Source: Eubacteriales bacterium (GTDB lineage Bacteria; Bacillota_A; Clostridia; Christensenellales; Aristaeellaceae). Taken from it: DNA of 28,251 nucleotides. Under the pieces are notes generated by a model. The model saw only the letters and a list, made by a program, of their open reading frames with translations, was not told the DNA's origin and ran no database searches. This document shows, piece by piece, positions 16,811 to 28,251 of the stretch. Position 1 is the stretch's first letter; each line of letters opens with the position of its first letter. The translations under genes were made by a program, and so were the position numbers. Location: NCBI GenBank assembly GCA_029974035.1, contig JARKQG010000040.1:1-28251 (forward strand), given 5' to 3'.

Positions 16811-17728
16811 ATGATGAATACGTTCCCCGGCGGCGTCTGGCCCGTCATGCTGACCCCGTTCACCCGGCTAAACGCGCTGGACGAGGCGGCCCTCGCCGCG
16901 CTGACCGACTGGTACATCCGCCAGGGCGCTTCCGGGCTCTTTGCCGTATGCCAATCCAGCGAGATGTTTTTTCTGTCGCTGGCGGAGCGCGTGCGCGCCG
17001 CGGAAGTGGTGGTTCGCGCCGCGGCCGGCCGCGTGCCGGTGATCGCCTCCGGGCACATCTCGGATGCGGAGCAGGCGCAAATTGACGAGCTGCGCGCCAT
17101 GAGCCGCACCGGCGTTCAGGCGCTCATCCTCATCACCAACCGGATGGCGGGCGAGGACGAGTCGGACGGATTGTGGCGCGAGCGCACCCGGCGGCTGATG
17201 GAGGCGCTGCCCGGGGATCTGCCGCTGGGGCTTTACGAGTGTCCCTATCCGTACAAGCGGCTCGTGTCGACGGAGAACCTGGCCTGGGCGGCGGGTACCG
17301 GGCGCTTCTGCTTTATGAAGGACACCTGCTGCGACGCCGCGCTCATCCGGGCGCGCACAGGGGTCCTTGCCGGGAGCGTCATGAAGCTGTACAACGCCAA
17401 CAGTACCACGCTGCTCGCCTCGCTCCGCGACGGCGCGGCGGGGTACAGCGGTGTAATGGCCAACTTCCACCCGGCGCTCTATCATTGGCTGTGCGGCCAC
17501 ACCGGGCATCCGGACGCCGCGCGCGTCAGCGATTTTCTGAGCGTGGCGGCGCTGATCGAGCGCCAGTGCTATCCGGTGAACGCCAAGTACCACGTGAGCG
17601 CCCTCGAGGGGCTGAACATGACCCTTCACAGCCGCGTGCGAAGCGAGGCGGAGATGACCGACACCTTCCGCGACGAGGTGGCCGCCCTCGACAGGATGGC
17701 CCGCCGGTTGGGCGCATCCCTGGGATAG
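16811..17728 (+). CDS. DHDPS/NAL-superfamily aldolase (second copy)
   Basis: 305 residues with AAGGAG 7 bases before ATG 16811. The Schiff-base lysine is K170 in FCFMKDTCCD, and the conserved tyrosine is Y142 in LGLYECPYPYKR, so this copy keeps the catalytic pair that the upstream paralogue lacks. The N-terminal GGVWPVMLTPFT and GASGLFAVCQSSEMFFLS are characteristic of a Bacillota subgroup annotated only as dihydrodipicolinate-synthase family. The two copies are clearly diverged from one another, so they probably act on different substrates or different steps. It is the last gene of the operon. Confidence 0.9.
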   Translation: MMNTFPGGVWPVMLTPFTRLNALDEAALAALTDWYIRQGASGLFAVCQSSEMFFLSLAERVRAAEVVVRAAAGRVPVIASGHISDAEQAQIDELRAMSRTGVQALILITNRMAGEDESDGLWRERTRRLMEALPGDLPLGLYECPYPYKRLVSTENLAWAAGTGRFCFMKDTCCDAALIRARTGVLAGSVMKLYNANSTTLLASLRDGAAGYSGVMANFHPALYHWLCGHTGHPDAARVSDFLSVAALIERQCYPVNAKYHVSALEGLNMTLHSRVRSEAEMTDTFRDEVAALDRMARRLGASLG

Positions 17729-17764
17729 TTCCAAAGCGGCGCCGCCCGGCGGTATCCAAACCAT

Positions 17765-17798
17765 AAAAGCCGCTCTCCGGAGACTCTGGAGGGCGGCT
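17765..17798 (-). terminator. Hairpin oriented as a leftward terminator
   Basis: An 11-bp stem (AGCCGCTCTCC at 17768-17778 with GGAGGGCGGCT at 17788-17798, one G-T pair) has a 9-base loop. On the minus strand it is followed immediately by TTTTA; on the plus strand no T-run follows. It lies 39 bases after the last operon gene, so it may also end that transcript with factor help. Its intrinsic direction is leftward, facing transcripts coming from the recombinase side. Confidence 0.6.
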
Positions 17799-18330
17799 CA
17801 AAGCGCTCTAGGTCTGCAAAATTCATTTTCCCCACACAAAGTCGCAAAATAATATTTTTAATAACCAAAAGAAAGCTTATAATCTTAGAACGTCAGGTAA
17901 ATTACCCGAAAATTTACACTTCAACAGAGTGCGTGCTGTGTTGACAGATGATTATAAAAAGAATACCATTAAATATACGTATGGATTGAGAGGATATGAA
18001 TCTTGACAGATGCAATATAAATTGAGCGCTGCAAAAATTTTTGACGTTGGAATTTTTCATGGAATAAGAGGTTTTCAAAGACGGCGCAGCGTTTTGTCTG
18101 AAATTTATCGACGGCGGTTATTTCATTCGGATTCCTCCGGAGATGCGAAATTTAAAAAGCCATCTCAACCTTATAAGGCGATTCAGTCATGATGCGGATG
18201 GATCTTGTCTGCGAAACCGCATGCTTTCGGAAGATGATCATGTTTCATATTCCAACGTTCTCCGGATTCCGAAAACATGATATAAATGAAAAAGGAAGAC
18301 GCGCGGTCATGTGTGCTTCATAAACGGGTA
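17799..18330. other. AT-rich intergenic region left of the recombinase segment
   Basis: This stretch shows an abrupt drop in GC compared with the operon to its left. It contains a candidate rightward promoter, two copies of TTGACAGATG (17941-17950 and 18003-18012), and short open frames of doubtful status. One runs 18010-18192 (60 codons). Another runs 18068-18280 without a clear start and reads plausibly (LKFIDGGYFIRIPPEM). I recognise none of them. It may be the remnant of an older insertion. Confidence 0.5.
17941..17969 (+). promoter_or_regulatory. Candidate rightward promoter outside the invertible segment
   Basis: TTGACA at 17941-17946, a 17-base spacer and TACCAT at 17964-17969. In the present orientation it would read antisense to the recombinase gene. 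If the segment 18331-19976 were flipped, it would read the recombinase in sense. The -10 matches only four of six positions. Confidence 0.35.
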
Positions 18331-18357
18331 ATTCGCAAAACAAATGAATTTCCGAAT
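18331..18357. other. Putative recombinase site L (inverted partner of 19950-19976)
   Basis: Two 9-bp arms, ATTCGCAAA (18331-18339) and TTTCCGAAT (18349-18357), are inverted repeats with one mismatch. They flank a 9-base spacer ACAAATGAA that contains the core CAAATGA (18341-18347). Paired arms around a short asymmetric core are the expected form of a tyrosine-recombinase core site. Aligned to the reverse complement of 19950-19976, 21 of 27 positions match, including all 7 core bases. Confidence 0.65.
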
Positions 18358-18395
18358 GCTTTCAAATTTCCGTGCCTGCCATGGGTTTTCCTTCG

Positions 18396-18415
18396 GTGCT
18401 TGACGGTGTTTGACG
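18396..18415. repeat. Tandem 10-bp repeats, possible recombinase arm sites
   Basis: GTGCTTGACG is followed directly by GTGTTTGACG (9 of 10 identical), about 40 bases inside site L. Integrases with an N-terminal arm-binding domain bind short tandem or direct repeats of this kind near the core site. The assignment is inference from geometry. Confidence 0.35.
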
Positions 18416-18608
18416 GCCTATCTCTTTTATGGAGAACGGACCGGCCGAAGCCTGGAAGATCCCAGCGGCGGCGGGGAACCTACATTAAAATATTGCTGAA
18501 TTCATAGCGGCGCAGGGAGCCGGAACGCGGCGGCTGCGCTGAAGGAAGGCGAAGCAGCGGCGCGCCCAAAAGGCTGCCGCGGCGGTGTGTGCATGTTTGG
18601 GATTGATG

Positions 18609-19724
18609 TTAAATGGCAAAGCGCTCCAATTTTATGACCGCCTGCCGCTGATGCTCCGGCGTGCTGTGGGCATAAAAACTCATCGTGGTCTGCACGGAGC
18701 TGTGGCCAAGCAAAGAGCTTACGGTTTTGATGTCAACGCCCATTTCCAGCAACCTCGTCGCATAGCTGTGCCTGAAGGTATGAAAATGCACGCCCTGCAG
18801 CCCCAAAGCCTGCGCCATATTTTTGCAGTGCTTCTGAACCAGCCTGGGATCGGCGGGTTTTTCTTCGGTGCCGAACAGAAAGGCCCTTGATTTGCTCCGA
18901 TGAAACAGGGCATGAAGCTGCTCGATAATAAAATTGGGGACTGGAATTGTCCGCACCGATTCTGCGGTCTTGGGCGGGGTAACCACAAGTTCCGTCTTCG
19001 GCGCGCTGCCGTTTGCGTGTGCGCTGACGCGCTGCGCCGTCGCGCGTACCGTCAACGACCGTTCTTCCCAATTGATATCACTCCAGCGCAGCGCGCATAC
19101 CTCTCCCACGCGCAGCCCCGCATACAGCGCTATCAGCGTGGGAAATTCAGATTGCTCCGAGGCGTACCGGGTTACTTTCTCCTGCTCGGAGACGGTCAGG
19201 ACGCGGGCCTTATGCCCCTTCTCTTTCCGAAATACCTTCTTTTGAACGGGGTTGTCCAATATAAGGTGCTCCGCATGGGCCGCTTCGACGGCCGCCCTGA
19301 ATAACCTGTACGCGCTTTTGCATGTGCCGGAAGACAAGCCGGCCGCTTGCATCCTTTCCGGCATGATGTCGGCCTCCTTGGCCGTTATCCGGGTAAGCAA
19401 AAGCTTTCCATAGCAAGGCAAGATATGCTTGTTGGCGATGGTTTGATAGCACGCGTAGGTAGAAACCTTTACTTTGGGCTTTACGCTGGTGTCGAGCCAG
19501 TAGGTGAACCAATCTTCAAACCGCCCCGAACCATGCTGTTTTATTGTAATGGGATTCCAGGTTGTTTCCATCTTTTTTTGGATCAACCGTTTTCTGACAT
19601 CGTAATAGTGCTTGCCATAGACATATCCCCAAATGGGCTTATTCCCCGATTGATAGCCGCGGATAAATCTGCCTTCGTAGCGTCCGTCCTTTCTCTTGTA
19701 GATGTTTTCCCCTCGTCTCGCCAA
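18609..19724 (-). CDS. Tyrosine recombinase/integrase, candidate DNA invertase
   Basis: 371 residues from a TTG start, with minus-strand GGAGGG 6 bases upstream. The N-terminus [19 protein letters not shown] is the arm-type DNA-binding domain of the Tn916-Int kind. A SAM-like core-binding domain spans roughly 68-155, and the catalytic domain runs from about 170 to the end. All catalytic residues are present: R205 ([10 protein letters not shown]), K252 (PPKTAES), H315 and R318 (HTFRHS), H341 (LLGHSS) and the nucleophile Y351 (SFYAHS). The enzyme should be active. No excisionase, relaxase or other mobile-element gene is nearby. Instead the gene sits between two inverted core-like sites together with the promoter of a loaP polysaccharide operon, so promoter inversion is a better guess than element integration. 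An integrase left from a decayed element is the alternative. Confidence 0.93.
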
Positions 19725-19893
19725 TTAAAGCCCTCCCCACAAAATGACGGATTCCGCGACGGCTAAAAAATAAATGTCCGCTTTCGCATCGCACTTCCGG
19801 ATGGCGCTGGCTCCATTACATGCCGACTTGTCATCCAGCCTCCCGGATGTCAGAGGCCAACGCGCCCCCGTTGGAAATTTTCTTGTAAATTTG

Positions 19894-19923
19894 TTGACAT
19901 TTCTCCTGAAGTCCGCTTATAAT
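19894..19923 (+). promoter_or_regulatory. Near-consensus promoter of the loaP polysaccharide operon
   Basis: A perfect TTGACA (19894-19899) and a perfect TATAAT (19918-19923) with an 18-base spacer. It is the closest match to the consensus hexamers that I find in the window. It points right toward loaP and lies just inside recombinase site R (19950-19976), so it would be reversed by inversion of the segment. The predicted leader to loaP is about 260 bases. Confidence 0.85.
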
Positions 19924-19949
19924 TGGGTGTATGTTCCAGTTCCTATGCG

Positions 19950-19976
19950 GTTCGCAAAATCATTTGATTTGCGGTT
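19950..19976. other. Putative recombinase site R (inverted partner of 18331-18357)
   Basis: Arms GTTCGCAAA (19950-19958) and TTTGCGGTT (19968-19976) share an inverted CGCAAA/TTTGCG. They flank a 9-base spacer ATCATTTGA whose inner TCATTTG (19960-19966) is the exact reverse complement of the CAAATGA core at site L. The site lies in the transcribed leader about 27 bases after the -10 box. Confidence 0.65.
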
Positions 19977-20016
19977 ACACACCAAACCATTATATACCAA
20001 TGCGGCGGAGGTTGAA

Positions 20017-20109
20017 TTGCAAGAAACGATATTTCGAGGCGGTTATTTTGCAGTTGTCCGGCGAAATATGTGTTTCTCTCCGGGGAAGTATTTACAAGGA
20101 TTAACGTAA
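20017..20109 (+). CDS. Possible 30-residue leader peptide
   Basis: A GGAGG ribosome-like site (20007-20011) precedes TTG 20017, which opens a 30-codon frame ending at TAA 20109. The product would start MQETIFRGGYFAVVRR. It lies inside the long leader of the loaP operon. There is no similarity I recognise, and it may be chance. Confidence 0.2.
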   Translation: MQETIFRGGYFAVVRRNMCFSPGKYLQGLT

Positions 20110-20115
20110 GCGTAA

Positions 20116-20129
20116 GCTGAGAGTTCAGC
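20116..20129 (+). promoter_or_regulatory. Leader hairpin, candidate LoaP recognition element
   Basis: GCTGA (20116-20120) pairs with TCAGC (20125-20129) around a GAGT tetraloop. A second imperfect hairpin (20058-20083: CCGG and GAAA pairing with TTTC and CCGG) lies upstream. LoaP proteins are known to bind a small hairpin in the leader of their target operons. That this is the element is inference. Confidence 0.35.
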
Positions 20130-20192
20130 GGCGTGGGTGTTAAGCCAAATAGAGCCATCGGGATCGATGCAATTGGATCGGGGGGCGAAGCT

Positions 20193-20735
20193 ATGCCTTC
20201 TTTGACAGCCTTCAAAGCGGATTGCGGCGACAGACTGTACGGTTGCGCCTTCTGCGCGACCGGAAAAGAAGAGGCGGTTGCAAGAAGTATTGAAGTTGTG
20301 TGTCCGGGCATTCGTGCCACGCCGGTGCGGCAGATTAAGCGCAAAACGGTTGGCGGGCACACGTCGCTGGTCGCCCAGATCGCCTTTCCCGGATATGTAT
20401 TTCTTGAGGTGGAGCCGGCCGGCGAATCCATATTTCGACTGCCAAGAGAGAACCTGAAAACATTACTCATGACGCCGAATTCCGGCTGGCGGCTCTCCGG
20501 AGACGACGAGCGCTATGCAAGGTGGATCTTCTCGCGGGGCGGTCTGATTTCCATGTCAAAAGCCTGTATGGAGGGTGGGCGCATCCGGATTGTCAGCGGG
20601 CCGCTGAAGGATCTGGAAGGGCACATCCTGCGGATAGACAAGAGAAATCGGAATGGACAGATCATGCTGACGTTCAACAACCGCACCCTCAAGGCGTGGC
20701 TCGGTTTCGAGATGATTGAAGCAGAGCGCGTCTGA
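20193..20735 (+). CDS. loaP: LoaP/NusG-family processive antiterminator
   Basis: 180 residues from ATG 20193, with a G-rich ribosome-like stretch just upstream; an earlier in-frame GTG at 20133 is less likely. The NusG N-terminal domain begins RLYGCAFCATGKEEAVAR (about 14-31) and includes AQIAFPGYVFLEV at 61-73, the typical FPGYVF motif. The KOW domain is at about 126-175 (GGRIRIVSGPLKDLEGHI, then a RNRNGQIMLTF strand). LoaP proteins are operon-specific NusG paralogues that travel with RNA polymerase and suppress termination in long polysaccharide or antibiotic operons. This one is the first gene of a polysaccharide operon with a long structured leader, the usual position. Part of its regulation is probably the invertible promoter upstream. 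Confidence 0.9.
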   Translation: MPSLTAFKADCGDRLYGCAFCATGKEEAVARSIEVVCPGIRATPVRQIKRKTVGGHTSLVAQIAFPGYVFLEVEPAGESIFRLPRENLKTLLMTPNSGWRLSGDDERYARWIFSRGGLISMSKACMEGGRIRIVSGPLKDLEGHILRIDKRNRNGQIMLTFNNRTLKAWLGFEMIEAERV

Positions 20736-20767
20736 TATCCGCCCTGCACCTGAAGGAGATGAACGCG

Positions 20768-21796
20768 ATGCGCCGGGCCGCCGGGCGCCCTCCTGGCACC
20801 GCAGACAGGAGAAAGGTGAAAGTGGGCGCGCTGTTTGCGCTCCTGGGGCTCGCGCTGTCGCTGGTGGCGCTGTACGCCATCGCCCGCAGATTGGAAACCG
20901 GGACGGGGGGACGGGAAGTCCGCGGAGACATTCAAGAATATATGAGCGACGCTCCTTCCCTCACATATGCGGGGGTTCTGTATACGCAAAAAAAACTCAC
21001 CACGGTGCTCCTGATGGGCATCGATAAGAGCACGACAGCCGGTGAGGGGGGATTCCGAAATGGCGGACAGGCGGATTTTTTGCTGCTGCTGCTGATCGAC
21101 ACCCAAAATAAAACCATTACCCCGCTGCAGATTGACAGGGACACGATGACGGAAATCACCATTCTGGGCGTATTGGGCAATGATTCCGGCACCAGAACCG
21201 CGCAGATCTGCCTCGCCCACGGCTTTGGGGACGGAAAAGCGCAGAGCTGCCTGCTGACCCAGCGGGCGGTGAGCAACCTGCTGCCCGGCGTCAGGATCGA
21301 CTCGTATGTGGCGATGAACCTGGAGGGGATCCGCGTGCTGAACGATGCGGTCGGCGGGGTGACGGTGACCCTGGAGGACGATTTCTCCGCCCTGGACCCC
21401 GCGATGAAAAAGGGCGTCACGCTCACGCTCCAGGGGGCTCAGGCCGAGTATTTCGTCAGAAACCGGCGGGATATCGGCGCCGGGACGAACGAGGCGCGGA
21501 TGCAGCGGCAGGGAACCTACCTGAAGGCGCTCCGGGCGAAACTGAGCGAGAAATATCATGATGACAGCGGCTTTGCCGACGAACTGTTTGACGCGCTTGA
21601 ACCCTACCTGCAGACGGATATGAAGCGCGGCAGGATCATCAACCAGGTCTGGAAGACGAGGGATTACGAATACGGGAATGTCGTCCGCCCCGAAGGCCGG
21701 TACTCGGTGGGCGCGGACGGTTTTATGGAGTTTCACCCGGACGAGGACGCGCTCCAAAAACTGATCATCAACCTGTTTTACCGGAAGGCGGATTAA
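20768..21796 (+). CDS. LytR-CpsA-Psr (LCP) family protein
   Basis: 342 residues from ATG 20768. An earlier ATG at 20759 touches the AAGGAG ribosome site (20753-20758), so the second ATG, 9 bases away, is preferred. One transmembrane helix (about 17-39) anchors an extracellular LCP domain. That domain contains TTVLLMGIDKS (79-88), QADFLLLLLID (101-111), and LQIDRDTM with the conserved Arg124-Asp125. These residues bind the pyrophosphate of polyprenyl-linked glycans in the family. LCP enzymes transfer lipid-linked glycans to peptidoglycan or another wall acceptor. Placed directly after loaP, it should attach the finished polysaccharide to the cell wall. Confidence 0.9.
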   Translation: MRRAAGRPPGTADRRKVKVGALFALLGLALSLVALYAIARRLETGTGGREVRGDIQEYMSDAPSLTYAGVLYTQKKLTTVLLMGIDKSTTAGEGGFRNGGQADFLLLLLIDTQNKTITPLQIDRDTMTEITILGVLGNDSGTRTAQICLAHGFGDGKAQSCLLTQRAVSNLLPGVRIDSYVAMNLEGIRVLNDAVGGVTVTLEDDFSALDPAMKKGVTLTLQGAQAEYFVRNRRDIGAGTNEARMQRQGTYLKALRAKLSEKYHDDSGFADELFDALEPYLQTDMKRGRIINQVWKTRDYEYGNVVRPEGRYSVGADGFMEFHPDEDALQKLIINLFYRKAD

Positions 21797-22550: not shown

Positions 22551-22581
22551 TTCAGTAAACTTTTTGCCAAGGGAGAACACG

Positions 22582-23358
22582 ATGACAGACTTTCTGAATC
22601 CGCCGAAGCGCGCGTCTGCCGGTGGGGAGGCAGAGGCGGATCGCTTCGACGGGGGCGAGATAGACCTAGTGGCGCTTCTGTTCCGGCTGCTGGAAAGCTG
22701 GAAATACATTTTGGCCGCGACACTTCTTGGCGCGGTCCTGGCCGGCGTGTACACGCTGTGGTTCACCACGCCGGTCTACGAGGCGACGGCGAAGCTGTAC
22801 GTCATTAATTCCGGCGATTCGGCGATCAACCTCTCGGACCTTCAAATTGGCTCCTACCTCGCCAGCGATTATCAAGAAGTATTCAAGACATGGGAAGTTC
22901 ACGAGATGGTGCTGTCGGAGCTTCATCTGGATTACTCCTATTCGCAGATGCAGAATATGCTGAAGGTGTCAAACCCGACCGATACGCGCATTTTGCATAT
23001 TACCGTTTCATCGGCCGATCCCCAGGAGGCGGCGGACATTGCCAACGAATACGCGGCCGTCGCAAAACAGTATATCTCGAAGACAATGGCCACGGAGGAA
23101 CCCAACATCCTGTCCTCGGCGCTGCTGCCGGTGCAGCCGGTCAAGCCGAACAAGACGATGAACGTCCTCCTGGGCTTTGTGCTTGGCGCGGCGCTCGCAA
23201 TCGGCGTGGTAACGGTCCGGTTCGTCATGGACGACAAGCTGAAAACGGCGGACGACGTCCGCAATTACGTCGGCTTGCCCACCTTGGCGGTCATCCCCAT
23301 CATGGGACAGGCGAGCGGGAAACGAAAGAACAAGAAAAGCGCGAAACGGAGGGGATGA
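22582..23358 (+). CDS. Wzz/CpsC-like polysaccharide chain-length and kinase-activator protein
   Basis: 258 residues from ATG 22582, with AAGGGAG 6 bases upstream. The topology is that of the Gram-positive Wzz type. A first transmembrane segment lies near 41-61 (KYILAATLLGAVLAGVYTLW), followed by an extracellular loop starting TTPVYEATAKLYV. A proline-rich PVQPVKPNK at 184-192 precedes a second segment at about 193-214. A short cytoplasmic tail ends in a lysine/arginine-rich stretch. In Gram-positive systems this protein activates the separate tyrosine kinase encoded next. The stop is 3 bases before that start codon, which fits a two-protein complex. Confidence 0.9.
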   Translation: MTDFLNPPKRASAGGEAEADRFDGGEIDLVALLFRLLESWKYILAATLLGAVLAGVYTLWFTTPVYEATAKLYVINSGDSAINLSDLQIGSYLASDYQEVFKTWEVHEMVLSELHLDYSYSQMQNMLKVSNPTDTRILHITVSSADPQEAADIANEYAAVAKQYISKTMATEEPNILSSALLPVQPVKPNKTMNVLLGFVLGAALAIGVVTVRFVMDDKLKTADDVRNYVGLPTLAVIPIMGQASGKRKNKKSAKRRG

Positions 23359-23361
23359 CGG

Positions 23362-24090
23362 ATGAAGACGCTGGAAATTTCCACTTTCCCCCACTTGGAT
23401 TATGCGTGCGCCGAAGCAATCAATTCCCTTTGCACCAACCTCACCTTCTGCGGAAATGACGTGAAGCGCATTATGCTGACCAGCTGCAGGGAAGGCGAGG
23501 GCAAGACGTTTCTCGCAATGAACACGGCGCGAACCATGGCGGGGCTGGGCAAGCGGGTTGTAATTCTGGACGCCGACCTCAGACGTTCCAGCATCGCGGC
23601 GGTGTATGGGCTGAACTCCGGCAGGGGTGGCGGCTTCGGCATCACCCACTACCTGGCGGGAAAATGCGAGATGAATGAGATCCTGTACCTTACGGGCATT
23701 CCCGGGCTTTGCATTGTGCCGGTTGGCCGTACCGTCGCAAATCCGCTGCCGCTTCTGAATTCGTCCCGGTTTTCAAGGCTCCTCAATGAGTTGCAGGAAA
23801 TGTTTGACTATGTGCTGGTGGACGCCCCGCCCGTGGGTGTTGTCATCGACGCGGCGGAGATTGCCAAGTCCTGCGATGGTACGATGTTTGTCGTCAAATA
23901 TAATACGATTCCCCGACGGGAGCTTGACGAGGCCAAGCGGCAGATCAGCCGCACGGGTTGCGCAATCCTCGGGGTGGTAATCAATCAGATGTCGTTTGAC
24001 ACATACGGCGGCAAGCGGTACTATCAGAAGTCTTATTATTATGATTCCGGCAATGCGAAAATGCACAGGAGGCATTCGAAGCCGGCGTAA
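23362..24090 (+). CDS. cpsD: CpsD-like bacterial tyrosine kinase
   Basis: A 242-residue cytoplasmic P-loop kinase with GGAGGGG 7 bases before ATG 23362. The Walker A variant SCREGEGKT (41-49), Walker A' VVILDADLRR (66-75) and Walker B DYVLVDAPP (149-157) are in the BY-kinase order. The tail carries the autophosphorylation tyrosine cluster (Y220, Y221, Y225, Y226, Y227). It lacks a membrane segment and depends on the Wzz-like partner just upstream. Cycles of tail phosphorylation, opposed by the phosphatase gene next downstream, control polymer length and export. Confidence 0.93.
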   Translation: MKTLEISTFPHLDYACAEAINSLCTNLTFCGNDVKRIMLTSCREGEGKTFLAMNTARTMAGLGKRVVILDADLRRSSIAAVYGLNSGRGGGFGITHYLAGKCEMNEILYLTGIPGLCIVPVGRTVANPLPLLNSSRFSRLLNELQEMFDYVLVDAPPVGVVIDAAEIAKSCDGTMFVVKYNTIPRRELDEAKRQISRTGCAILGVVINQMSFDTYGGKRYYQKSYYYDSGNAKMHRRHSKPA

Positions 24091-24116: not shown

Positions 24117-24836
24117 ATGAAACGTTTTGTCGATATCCACCATCATATCCTGTATGGGCTGGATGACGGCCCCGGGACCTATGAGGAGATGGCCGCCATG
24201 CTTCGCCTGGCGGCCACCGAGGGAATCGGCGTGATTGTCGCGACACCGCACGTCACGCCGGGCGTGGCGCCGGTTGATTACGCGCTCATGGCAAGCCGGT
24301 TATCGGAAGCGCGTGCCTATTGCGTGAAAAGCGGGCTGGAACTTCAGATAGTCCCGGGAGCCGAGGTGCTTTTCACGCCCGCGCTCGAGAATTTGGTTTC
24401 CCAGGGGAATGTGCCGACCCTGGCGGGATCCCGATGCGTGCTTTTGGAGTTCGCGTTTGACGTAGAATGCGCGGAAATCGAAAGCGCGGTGCGGGTGCTG
24501 CTGAACGGCGGATATCTGCCAATCCTCGCGCACATCGAAAGATACCATTGCTTCAGGGGAAGAATTTCGCGGCTGAAACGGCTCAAATCCAGGCACGCGG
24601 TTCTTTTCCAGATGAACTGCGGAGCGCTGACCGGAAAAAATGGCTTTTTTTCAAAGTGCCACGCCAGGCGGCTTTTGCTGGAAGACCTGATCGATTTCGC
24701 CGCCACGGATGCCCACAACACGTCGACGCGCTCCTGCGACATGCGAACGTTTTTTCGAGCCGTGGAGGCGTCTTCCGGCGCGGAGACCGCGCAGGCGCTG
24801 ACGGGGAAAAACGCCGAAGAGTACCTCCTGAAATAA
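24117..24836 (+). CDS. cpsB: CpsB-like PHP-domain tyrosine phosphatase
   Basis: A 239-residue manganese-dependent phosphatase of the PHP superfamily. Metal-ligand motifs are in order: DIHHHILYGLDDGP (from residue 6, with H8 and H10), ATPHVTP (H45), a glutamate in GAEVLF, AHIERY, and ATDAHN near residue 197. This is the CpsB/YwqE family that removes phosphate from the CpsD-type kinase tail. The gene follows the kinase by 26 bases, with only a modest AGAGG-like ribosome site. Together with the Wzz-like protein and kinase it completes the Gram-positive phosphoregulatory trio. Confidence 0.93.
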   Translation: MKRFVDIHHHILYGLDDGPGTYEEMAAMLRLAATEGIGVIVATPHVTPGVAPVDYALMASRLSEARAYCVKSGLELQIVPGAEVLFTPALENLVSQGNVPTLAGSRCVLLEFAFDVECAEIESAVRVLLNGGYLPILAHIERYHCFRGRISRLKRLKSRHAVLFQMNCGALTGKNGFFSKCHARRLLLEDLIDFAATDAHNTSTRSCDMRTFFRAVEASSGAETAQALTGKNAEEYLLK

Positions 24837-26797: not shown

Positions 26798-28251
26798 ATG
26801 GCCCAGGAAAGAGCGCCCCGCTACGATGAACAAGTGGTTGCCAGCGAAGCGGGACAGGCATATACATATCCGCCGCAGCTGAGGCCGCTGGAGACTCCAC
26901 GCAAGCAGCCGACGCTTAGAGAATCTGAGCAGGCCGCTTATTCATCTTTCCAGAAAACAGTCATTATGCGCAGCATGAAGCTTTTCAGCGTCATCGTGAC
27001 TGTGTTCTTATTTGCGGTACTTTGGATGGCTTTCTATCCAAAGAATATCGACAATCGGATTCTGGACTTGTTTGACACAAATGTCATCGCTTATATGGAA
27101 CTTGTCACGTGGGTTCTGTACGCGATTCTCGTCATGCGGCTTGGGCGTATATATCACGCATACGCGGCTGGCCTGACCCGTGTTTCGGAGATCATCTATT
27201 CGCAGGCGCTGGCAAACTTCTTTAGCGGAGCCATCATCTTCATCTTGGCCTGCCTGACCAGGCAATACTTCATGAATCCCTTGCCTCTGCTTGCGATTGT
27301 GGCGGCCCAGGTTCTTTGGAGCGCGGTGTGGGGGATCGCGGCCAATAAGCTCTACTTCCGGCTGTATCCGCCGCAGCCAACTGCGATCATCTATAAATCC
27401 AAGGCGGATCTCAACAAGATAGAACAGATTCGCTTCTTTTCCAGCCGGTTTGATGTGCATGATCGGGTTGAGAACCCGGAGGATGTGAATACAATCATCC
27501 AAGCCGCGGAGGGCAACAAGGTGGTTTTCATCTCTGGCGTTGAATCCTCCCTGCGGGACAAGGTCGTTGCGCACTGCCTCGAAGAAGGCATCCAATGCTA
27601 CGTCACTCCTGAAGTCAGCGATATCGTTATGGCCGGTGCGGAGCATATGCAGATGTTCAGCACGCCCATTATGAGCGTGCGTCGCGCTATGCCATCGCCT
27701 GAATACTTGTTCATTAAGCGAGCCTTTGACATCGTTGGTTCGCTGATTGGCATTGTCATAGCCGGCCCGTTCATGCTCATGACTGCTTTAGCCATCAAGC
27801 TATATGATGGAGGGCCGGTTCTATACAAGCAAACGCGCTTGACCCAGGGGCGCAAAGAGTTCGAAATCCTCAAGTTCCGTAGCATGTGCGTTGACGCTGA
27901 AAAAGACGGTGTCGCCCGGTTGGCGTGTACATCCGATGGTCGAATCACGCCCGTAGGGAAAGTGATTCGAGCCATACGCTTCGATGAACTGCCACAGCTG
28001 TTCAATATTTTATTTGGTGATATGACAGTAGTCGGCCCGCGCCCAGAACGACCGGAGATTGCGGAGCAGTACGAAGAAGATGTTCCGGAATTTGGCCTGC
28101 GTTTGCAAGTCAAGGCAGGCCTAACCGGATATGCGCAGATACATGGAAAGTATAATACGGAGCCTATAGATAAGCTCCAGATGGATCTTATGTATATCAG
28201 TAATATGTCCGTTGTCGAAGATATTCGGCTTATCTTCTCAACCATTAAAAT
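26798..28251 (+). CDS. Polyprenyl glycosyl-1-phosphate transferase (CpsE/WbaP-like), partial at 3' end
   Basis: The frame is open from ATG 26798 to the window edge (484 codons visible, probably within a few codons of the end). GGAGAGA sits 7 bases upstream of the start. After a polar N-terminal stretch there are four or so hydrophobic segments (first near 60-82: MKLFSVIVTVFLFAVLWMAF). A Rossmann-like CoA-binding-type domain follows, then the catalytic Bac_transf domain with ILKFRSM, FDELPQLFNILFGDM, VVGPRPERPEI and KAGLTGYAQIHGKYN. This is the full-length polytopic type that loads the first sugar-1-phosphate on undecaprenyl phosphate. Base composition is clearly more AT-rich than the homologue at 1871, suggesting a different origin. 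It is the committed step of the loaP-controlled polysaccharide. Confidence 0.93.
   Translation, partial: MAQERAPRYDEQVVASEAGQAYTYPPQLRPLETPRKQPTLRESEQAAYSSFQKTVIMRSMKLFSVIVTVFLFAVLWMAFYPKNIDNRILDLFDTNVIAYMELVTWVLYAILVMRLGRIYHAYAAGLTRVSEIIYSQALANFFSGAIIFILACLTRQYFMNPLPLLAIVAAQVLWSAVWGIAANKLYFRLYPPQPTAIIYKSKADLNKIEQIRFFSSRFDVHDRVENPEDVNTIIQAAEGNKVVFISGVESSLRDKVVAHCLEEGIQCYVTPEVSDIVMAGAEHMQMFSTPIMSVRRAMPSPEYLFIKRAFDIVGSLIGIVIAGPFMLMTALAIKLYDGGPVLYKQTRLTQGRKEFEILKFRSMCVDAEKDGVARLACTSDGRITPVGKVIRAIRFDELPQLFNILFGDMTVVGPRPERPEIAEQYEEDVPEFGLRLQVKAGLTGYAQIHGKYNTEPIDKLQMDLMYISNMSVVEDIRLIFSTIK

Follow-up and report, generated by a model that had tools for sequence, protein, structure and literature searches.

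The window analysed here is a 28,251-nucleotide stretch of DNA from a Eubacteriales bacterium (contig JARKQG010000040.1). Within it, a tyrosine recombinase gene and a promoter-like sequence are enclosed by two inverted sites, and beyond these lie the genes of a capsule operon (Table 1).

Table 1. Features of the recombinase cassette and the neighbouring operon, in window coordinates.
Feature	Position	Strand	Details
Site L	18331..18357	+	Arms ATTCGCAAA and TTTCCGAAT around ACAAATGAA; inferred 7-bp overlap CAAATGA at 18341-18347
Arm-type repeat	18401..18406	-	ACCGTCA on the recombinase-coding strand
Arm-type repeat	18411..18416	-	GCCGTCA; 10 bp from the repeat at 18401
Tyrosine recombinase	18609..19724	-	371 aa, TTG start; PF14659, PF00589; predicted arm-binding, core-binding and catalytic domains
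Arm-type repeat	19745..19750	-	TCCGTCA, upstream of the recombinase
Arm-type repeat	19757..19762	-	GCCGTCG; 12 bp from the repeat at 19745
Outward promoter (predicted)	19894..19923	+	TTGACA-18-TATAAT, 12/12 consensus; inside the segment, oriented out over site R towards the loaP-like gene
Site R	19950..19976	-	Minus-strand reading AACCGCAAA TCAAATGAT TTTGCGAAC; inferred overlap CAAATGA at 19960-19966, inverted relative to site L
loaP-like NusG paralogue	20193..20735	+	First operon gene; NF033641, 76.6 bits; likely start ATG 20193 (mechanical ORF start 20133)
LytR-CpsA-Psr (LCP) glycopolymer transferase	20759..21796	+	PF03816
Wzz-type chain-length protein	22564..23358	+	PF02706, TIGR01006
Capsule tyrosine autokinase	23362..24090	+	TIGR01007, above its cut-off
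CpsB/CapC-type capsule protein	24117..24836	+	PF19567
Polyprenyl glycosylphosphotransferase	26798..28249	+	PF02397, TIGR03025; runs past the window end

An earlier note on this DNA had called the first operon gene loaP. Its place at the head of a capsule operon stands, but the name is less secure: the score falls below the model's cut-off of 125 bits, and we therefore use the safer term loaP-like. The cut-off may itself be narrow, since none of 300 genomes of a related family reached it. In these genomes the loaP model, which also matches ordinary NusG (13 of 14 control genomes), picked out 30 loci, 15 of them matched by the window's loaP protein. None of the 30 had such a recombinase within the surrounding 1-1.5 kb, so the pairing of loaP with a cassette looks like a minority arrangement.

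A structure model of the recombinase, built from 21 aligned sequences (mean pLDDT 80.5, pTM 0.58), has a beta-beta-beta-alpha unit at residues 8-55, followed by core-binding helices and the catalytic domain. In blocks of ten residues the pLDDT of the N-terminal domain is 64-89, and 54 in residues 51-60. Among the residues invariant in the 21 sequences are R205, K252, H315, R318, H341 and Y351, which we take from knowledge of the family to be catalytic. A fold search gave Tn1549 as the best match and lambda integrases next; Tn1549 Int was also the best match by sequence in the PDB, and the PHROG match was "integrase". By its N-terminal domain, the enzyme is predicted to be an arm-binding integrase of the lambda/Tn916 type.

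Site pairs, arm-type repeats and promoters among relatives

The earlier note had proposed that two 27-bp dyads of 9-9-9 geometry bound an invertible segment. On recomputation we recovered both sites, their geometry, the inverted CAAATGA core and the match at 21 of 27 positions. The core occupies positions 11-17 of the 27-mer in both sites, and the nearest differences between them are at positions 10 and 18. By itself, the pair is borderline, exceeding chance only marginally: in a wide search, the best of 40 flank shuffles also gave 21 matches.

We compared the locus with the best 80 of 250 loci found in a scan of one genome per species, whose recombinases are 33-46% identical to the window's. 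Closer relatives were sought in 396 and 300 genomes, with nothing above 47% identity at the E-value limits used; a protein search gave six proteins 58-74% identical. A scan of viral contigs returned four partial matches (35-36%), which were not used. The set of relatives contains near-duplicate loci (L045/L047, L068/L069 and L037/L046/L061), and the counts that follow are therefore not independent.

For the site pairs, eight of the 80 loci were left out because of short flanks, and the best inverted 27-mer pair was taken in fixed search windows. Of the 72 relatives so obtained from the best 80 of 250, 53 had a pair with at least 21 of 27 matches; among control ORFs (other ORFs of the relatives' loci), 1 of 240 did. 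The comparison of homologous loci proposed in the earlier note thus did find conserved pairs. At least 22 positions matched in 45 of the 72, and the pair was perfect in 10. The other 19 had no pair of at least 21, although one of these, L017, has a 26/27 pair in a wider search.

The paired relatives were used to build a site profile that excluded the window. Of the 53, 32 had a clear odd-centred dyad, and removal of three with a shared core left 29. Site L (18.3) and site R (12.2) rank first and second among all 27-mers of the window by this profile. Across 301,768 positions outside the cassettes in 32 relatives, none reached the score of site L, and 11 reached that of site R. The third-ranking sequence in the window, at 17840-17866, consists of AGTCGCAAAA and a poor right arm and scores 12.1, nearly as high as site R; it may be either a chance match or the leftover of a former site.

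Core positions 11-17 mismatched between the two sites in none of the 29 profile loci, whereas outer positions mismatched in up to 12 loci at one position. That the cores of the profile loci all differ is partly by construction, but the finding of 29 different cores among the 32 loci before this removal is not. Identity within a pair and freedom between loci fit what would be expected if positions 11-17 act as a 7-bp strand-exchange overlap.

The tyrosine-recombinase cassette described in the earlier note holds, but the note had missed a set of CCGTCA repeats that point to an integrase-type enzyme. In 59 loci with a pair of at least 20 (window included), we counted six-mers inside the cassette on the recombinase-coding strand, and CCGTCA was the one most often present both before and after the gene, in 47 of the 59. 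With six of the best 80 of 250 loci left out, 51 of 74 relatives carry CCGTCA within 300 bp on both sides of the gene, 13 on one side and 10 on neither; control ORFs have it on both sides in 0 of 230 cases and on one side in 25. The shorter CCGTC is present on both sides in 49 of the 53 relatives with a pair and in 7 of the 19 without; the fuller form of the repeat is TAAGCCGTCAA. Spacing is regular: of 24 upstream pairs (the window's included), 22 have an interval of 12 bp, and of 20 downstream pairs, 15 have one of 10 or 12 bp. From sequence and the model of the N-terminal domain, these repeats are probably bound by the recombinase's predicted arm-binding domain.

The repeats also bear on site L, which lies 253 bp past the recombinase stop, the median for 45 relatives being 88 bp. 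The distance from the last downstream repeat to the site is 36-71 bp in 50 of 52 loci (window included) and 146 and 246 bp in the other two, and by the same measure the window's repeat pair at 18401/18411 ends 50 bp from site L. Site L, though distant from the gene, thus sits as far from its repeats as is usual in the family, an argument for its being the true partner. This matters for a reading in which the window carries a fossil, a cassette of an inverting family that is now immobile in this lineage and fixed ON. Such a loss would account for a pair with 6 mismatches in 27, where most relatives have fewer, for the differences of both sites just outside the core, and for the unusual distance of site L from the gene. 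Against it, the recombinase frame is full-length with its invariant residues intact, the 7-bp core is identical in both sites, and both arm repeat pairs keep the family spacing; we regard a fossil as unlikely.

The promoter listed in Table 1 is the sole 12/12 site among six promoter-like sites in 17700-20800; scores here count consensus matches only, and all promoters are predicted ones. An outward promoter scoring 11-12 of 12, in a position similar to the window's, was found in 34 of 78 relatives (two of the best 80 of 250 left out), compared with 2 of 301 controls. Among the 72 flanked loci, 30 score 11-12 outward and one scores so towards the recombinase in the same stretch. All three features, namely a pair of at least 21, CCGTC on both sides and an outward promoter of at least 10, occur together in 39 of these 72 relatives, again from the best 80 of 250.

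Ten of the 19 relatives without a good pair, all Enterococcus recombinases retrieved by the same N-terminal patterns as the others (L020, L025-L028, L030, L031, L038, L051 and L067), also have promoter scores of only 8-9. Nine of their loci lack CCGTCA on either side, and L020 lacks it upstream only and has it downstream. These recombinases may act at other places.

What the site pair alone leaves borderline is settled by the relatives, which strongly support an invertible segment. Chance dyads beside an unrelated integrase would explain a pair score that shuffles can reach, but not the profile ranks, the conserved geometry, the repeats or the promoter, and we consider this extremely improbable.

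Inversion in a relative and a proposed promoter switch

Two Monoglobus assemblies labelled "Lapin" (rabbit), L068 and L069, differ by an exact inversion. Each flank of one corresponds to the opposite flank of the other, at 99.95% across 5,813 bp; a 1,384-bp segment that includes the cassette aligns without reversal at 99.93%. Between the two assemblies the sites have swapped their outer arms and retained the inner ones, which places the crossover inside an 11-bp stretch containing the core. This shows that at least one member of the family inverts, and together with the relatives' inverted pairs, outward promoters and locus-specific 7-bp cores it strongly supports the invertible segment of the earlier note. 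For the window's own cassette, inversion in its strain is inferred. This was the only exact inversion found among the relatives. Nine cassette copies at three loci on five Enterococcus raffinosus plasmids, those checked having site pairs of 22-26, kept one orientation per locus with no inversion seen; L144 and L146 align over the cassette and right flank only.

The integrase-like features could also belong to a minimal mobile element, consisting of an integrase gene and end sites, that inserted before the capsule operon and excises as a circle. The recombinase does group with phage and transposon integrases in the PHROG and PDB comparisons, and the repeats are placed where integrase arm sites could lie. 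However, the site overlaps are inverted where an integrative element would have direct att sites, so recombination would invert the segment and not excise it. Furthermore, no gene other than the recombinase was recognised between the sites, and the exchange between L068 and L069 is an exact inversion. We judge a mobile element to be highly improbable.

We instead favour, with a probability of roughly 0.87, a self-inverting promoter cassette of about 1.6 kb whose own integrase-type recombinase switches the loaP-like gene and capsule operon on and off. In this mechanism, the cassette-encoded recombinase would bind both dyad core sites, its N-terminal arm-binding domain would contact the CCGTCA repeats just inside each end, and strands would be exchanged across the 7-bp overlap CAAATGA. 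Because the overlap is inverted between the sites, the entire segment would flip. ON, as drawn, the promoter would read over site R into the loaP-like gene, and the protein made from it would assist polymerase along the long capsule operon. After a flip, the promoter would face leftward, where genes are sparse, and the recombinase gene would point towards the loaP-like gene, leaving the operon OFF or low.

Reflection of the promoter about the site pair gives 18384-18413, the flipped position named in the earlier note, and its expectation that no evident strong promoter would then precede loaP agrees with a simulated flip, in which the best score there falls from 12/12 to 8/12. These results fit an ON state for the window as drawn and an OFF state when flipped, with transcription, and the capsule, presumably following. 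No terminator-like site was found on the minus strand between the recombinase stop and site L, so the OFF state may be leaky. We also note a 10/12 promoter-like site at 17941-17969 that reads right to site L through the gene-poor stretch and would cross the recombinase gene antisense.

The leftward-reading state raises a further alternative, a two-way switch in which the promoter serves the capsule operon one way and another leftward gene or RNA the other way. Outward-facing ORFs lie on both sides in 19 of the 53 paired relatives by a rough count, and in L014 homologous 727-aa ORFs stand on either side. In the window, however, the nearest leftward ORFs of at least 60 aa start at 17868 (80 aa), 17801 (91 aa) and 17764 (298 aa), at least 460 bp from site L. 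None of the three has a Pfam match, and they overlap one another or the opposite-strand DHDPS-like gene (16811-17728). A two-way switch at this locus therefore seems very improbable.

Where a relative has only one outward neighbour, the promoter points away from it in 25 cases and towards it in 7 (a rough ORF count, with at least L011 misassigned), so the state drawn in the window is the minority one. In L005, as in the window, the promoter faces a homologous operon of LCP, Wzz and kinase genes; in L002 and L011 such an operon lies on the opposite side, and L006 has a loaP-like gene on the side away from the promoter. L002 lacks the upstream site because its contig ends 202 bp before the gene. 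No loaP-like match lies between the cassette and the LCP gene in L005 or L011.

Known systems and the targets of the wider family

Gut Bacteroides provide the textbook example of phase-variable capsules: in Bacteroides fragilis, an invertible promoter precedes a capsule operon headed, as in the window, by a NusG-paralogue gene, there UpxY. To our knowledge, such switches are little described for most gut Clostridia. The Hin segment of Salmonella resembles the window's cassette in combining a recombinase gene and an outward promoter in one invertible segment, but Hin belongs to the serine recombinases and uses an enhancer site. The overlap of lambda is 7 bp, as inferred for the window sites, and lambda arm sites bias or time recombination. 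The integrases of Tn1549, Tn916 and lambda resemble the window's enzyme in their predicted arm-binding, core-binding and catalytic domains and in having repeats beside the cores; they integrate and excise, whereas the family described here would invert a segment holding the recombinase gene and promoter.

Three systems in the relevant passages of PMC5903667 share parts of this layout. The invertible capsule promoters of B. fragilis are flipped by a single serine recombinase, Mpi, that serves many loci, whereas the window has an integrase-type tyrosine recombinase inside the cassette and a LoaP-like paralogue. The Salmonella Hin segment is named there as well. The RecV switches of Clostridioides difficile, also in Clostridia, have inverted sites for a tyrosine recombinase before surface and motility genes; RecV serves several switches, while here each cassette has its own enzyme, core and repeats. 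In Eggerthella lenta, inversion repositions capsule genes relative to loaP, but on a megabase scale and at a 16-bp repeat, and the term "tyrosine recombinase" is absent from the main text of that report (PMC13174815). A generalisation in PMC8138268 holds that arm-binding domains were acquired for mobility, from which an arm-binding, self-inverting cassette would depart. Among papers listed by searches of the CC-licensed PMC literature, no title or abstract opening described a tyrosine recombinase dedicated to a loaP operon or an arm-site invertase of this kind.

The system appears broader than the earlier note saw, with the same layout in relatives from many gut bacteria. We ran Pfam scans on 30 neighbour genes from 29 loci, hand-picked from the ORF list. 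Surface-type neighbours comprised pilin/SpaA, BspA-type leucine-rich repeat, S-layer, Ig-like and other large proteins, and further neighbours included a rhamnan synthesis protein (RgpF), LytTR, LuxR-type and winged-helix regulators, and HD-domain proteins. Others were not obviously connected with the surface: an asparagine synthetase, helicase-like and AAA proteins, a Sel1-repeat protein, and LepA, which may not be a target. Some scanned genes had no Pfam match. On two annotated Enterococcus plasmids, the cassette's neighbours include accessory Sec and WxL genes. In L014 and L012, homologous sequence flanks the cassette on both sides, and a flip could there alternate between two paralogues.

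On balance, we lean towards a widespread Clostridia/Enterococcus family of integrase type that turned from mobility to self-inversion, with the loaP-like capsule operon as one of many captured surface or regulatory targets. Its members would have private 7-bp overlaps and share an arm repeat, TAAGCCGTCA, that runs in the same direction at both ends. With repeats in one direction and cores inverted, the cassette has two unlike ends, and this could bias or time the switch. As an inversion module the cassette would be small and complete in itself, and its proposed arm sites are open to direct testing. Because the core dyad, private 7-mer, CCGTCA pairs and outward promoter identify it from sequence, targets and states can be read in existing assemblies and reads.

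A separate observation concerns the start of the loaP-like gene. Its leader folds no more stably than shuffled versions (z 0.59), and Rfam gave no match at gathering scores. A reading of the conserved GGGCGAAGCTATGCC as an RNA hairpin was dropped; the sequence overlaps the ribosome-binding site and start codon. This start context is common to other loaP-like genes. The pattern GGGCGAAGC-N-W-TGCC, mostly after GGA, stands at the starts of the loaP-like genes of the window (20183-20197), L006, L011, L115, L117, L120 and L122. The ribosome-binding site, spacer and start codon look kept as DNA in otherwise distant genes, and the conserved context is perhaps a site of translational self-regulation by the gene's protein or RNA.
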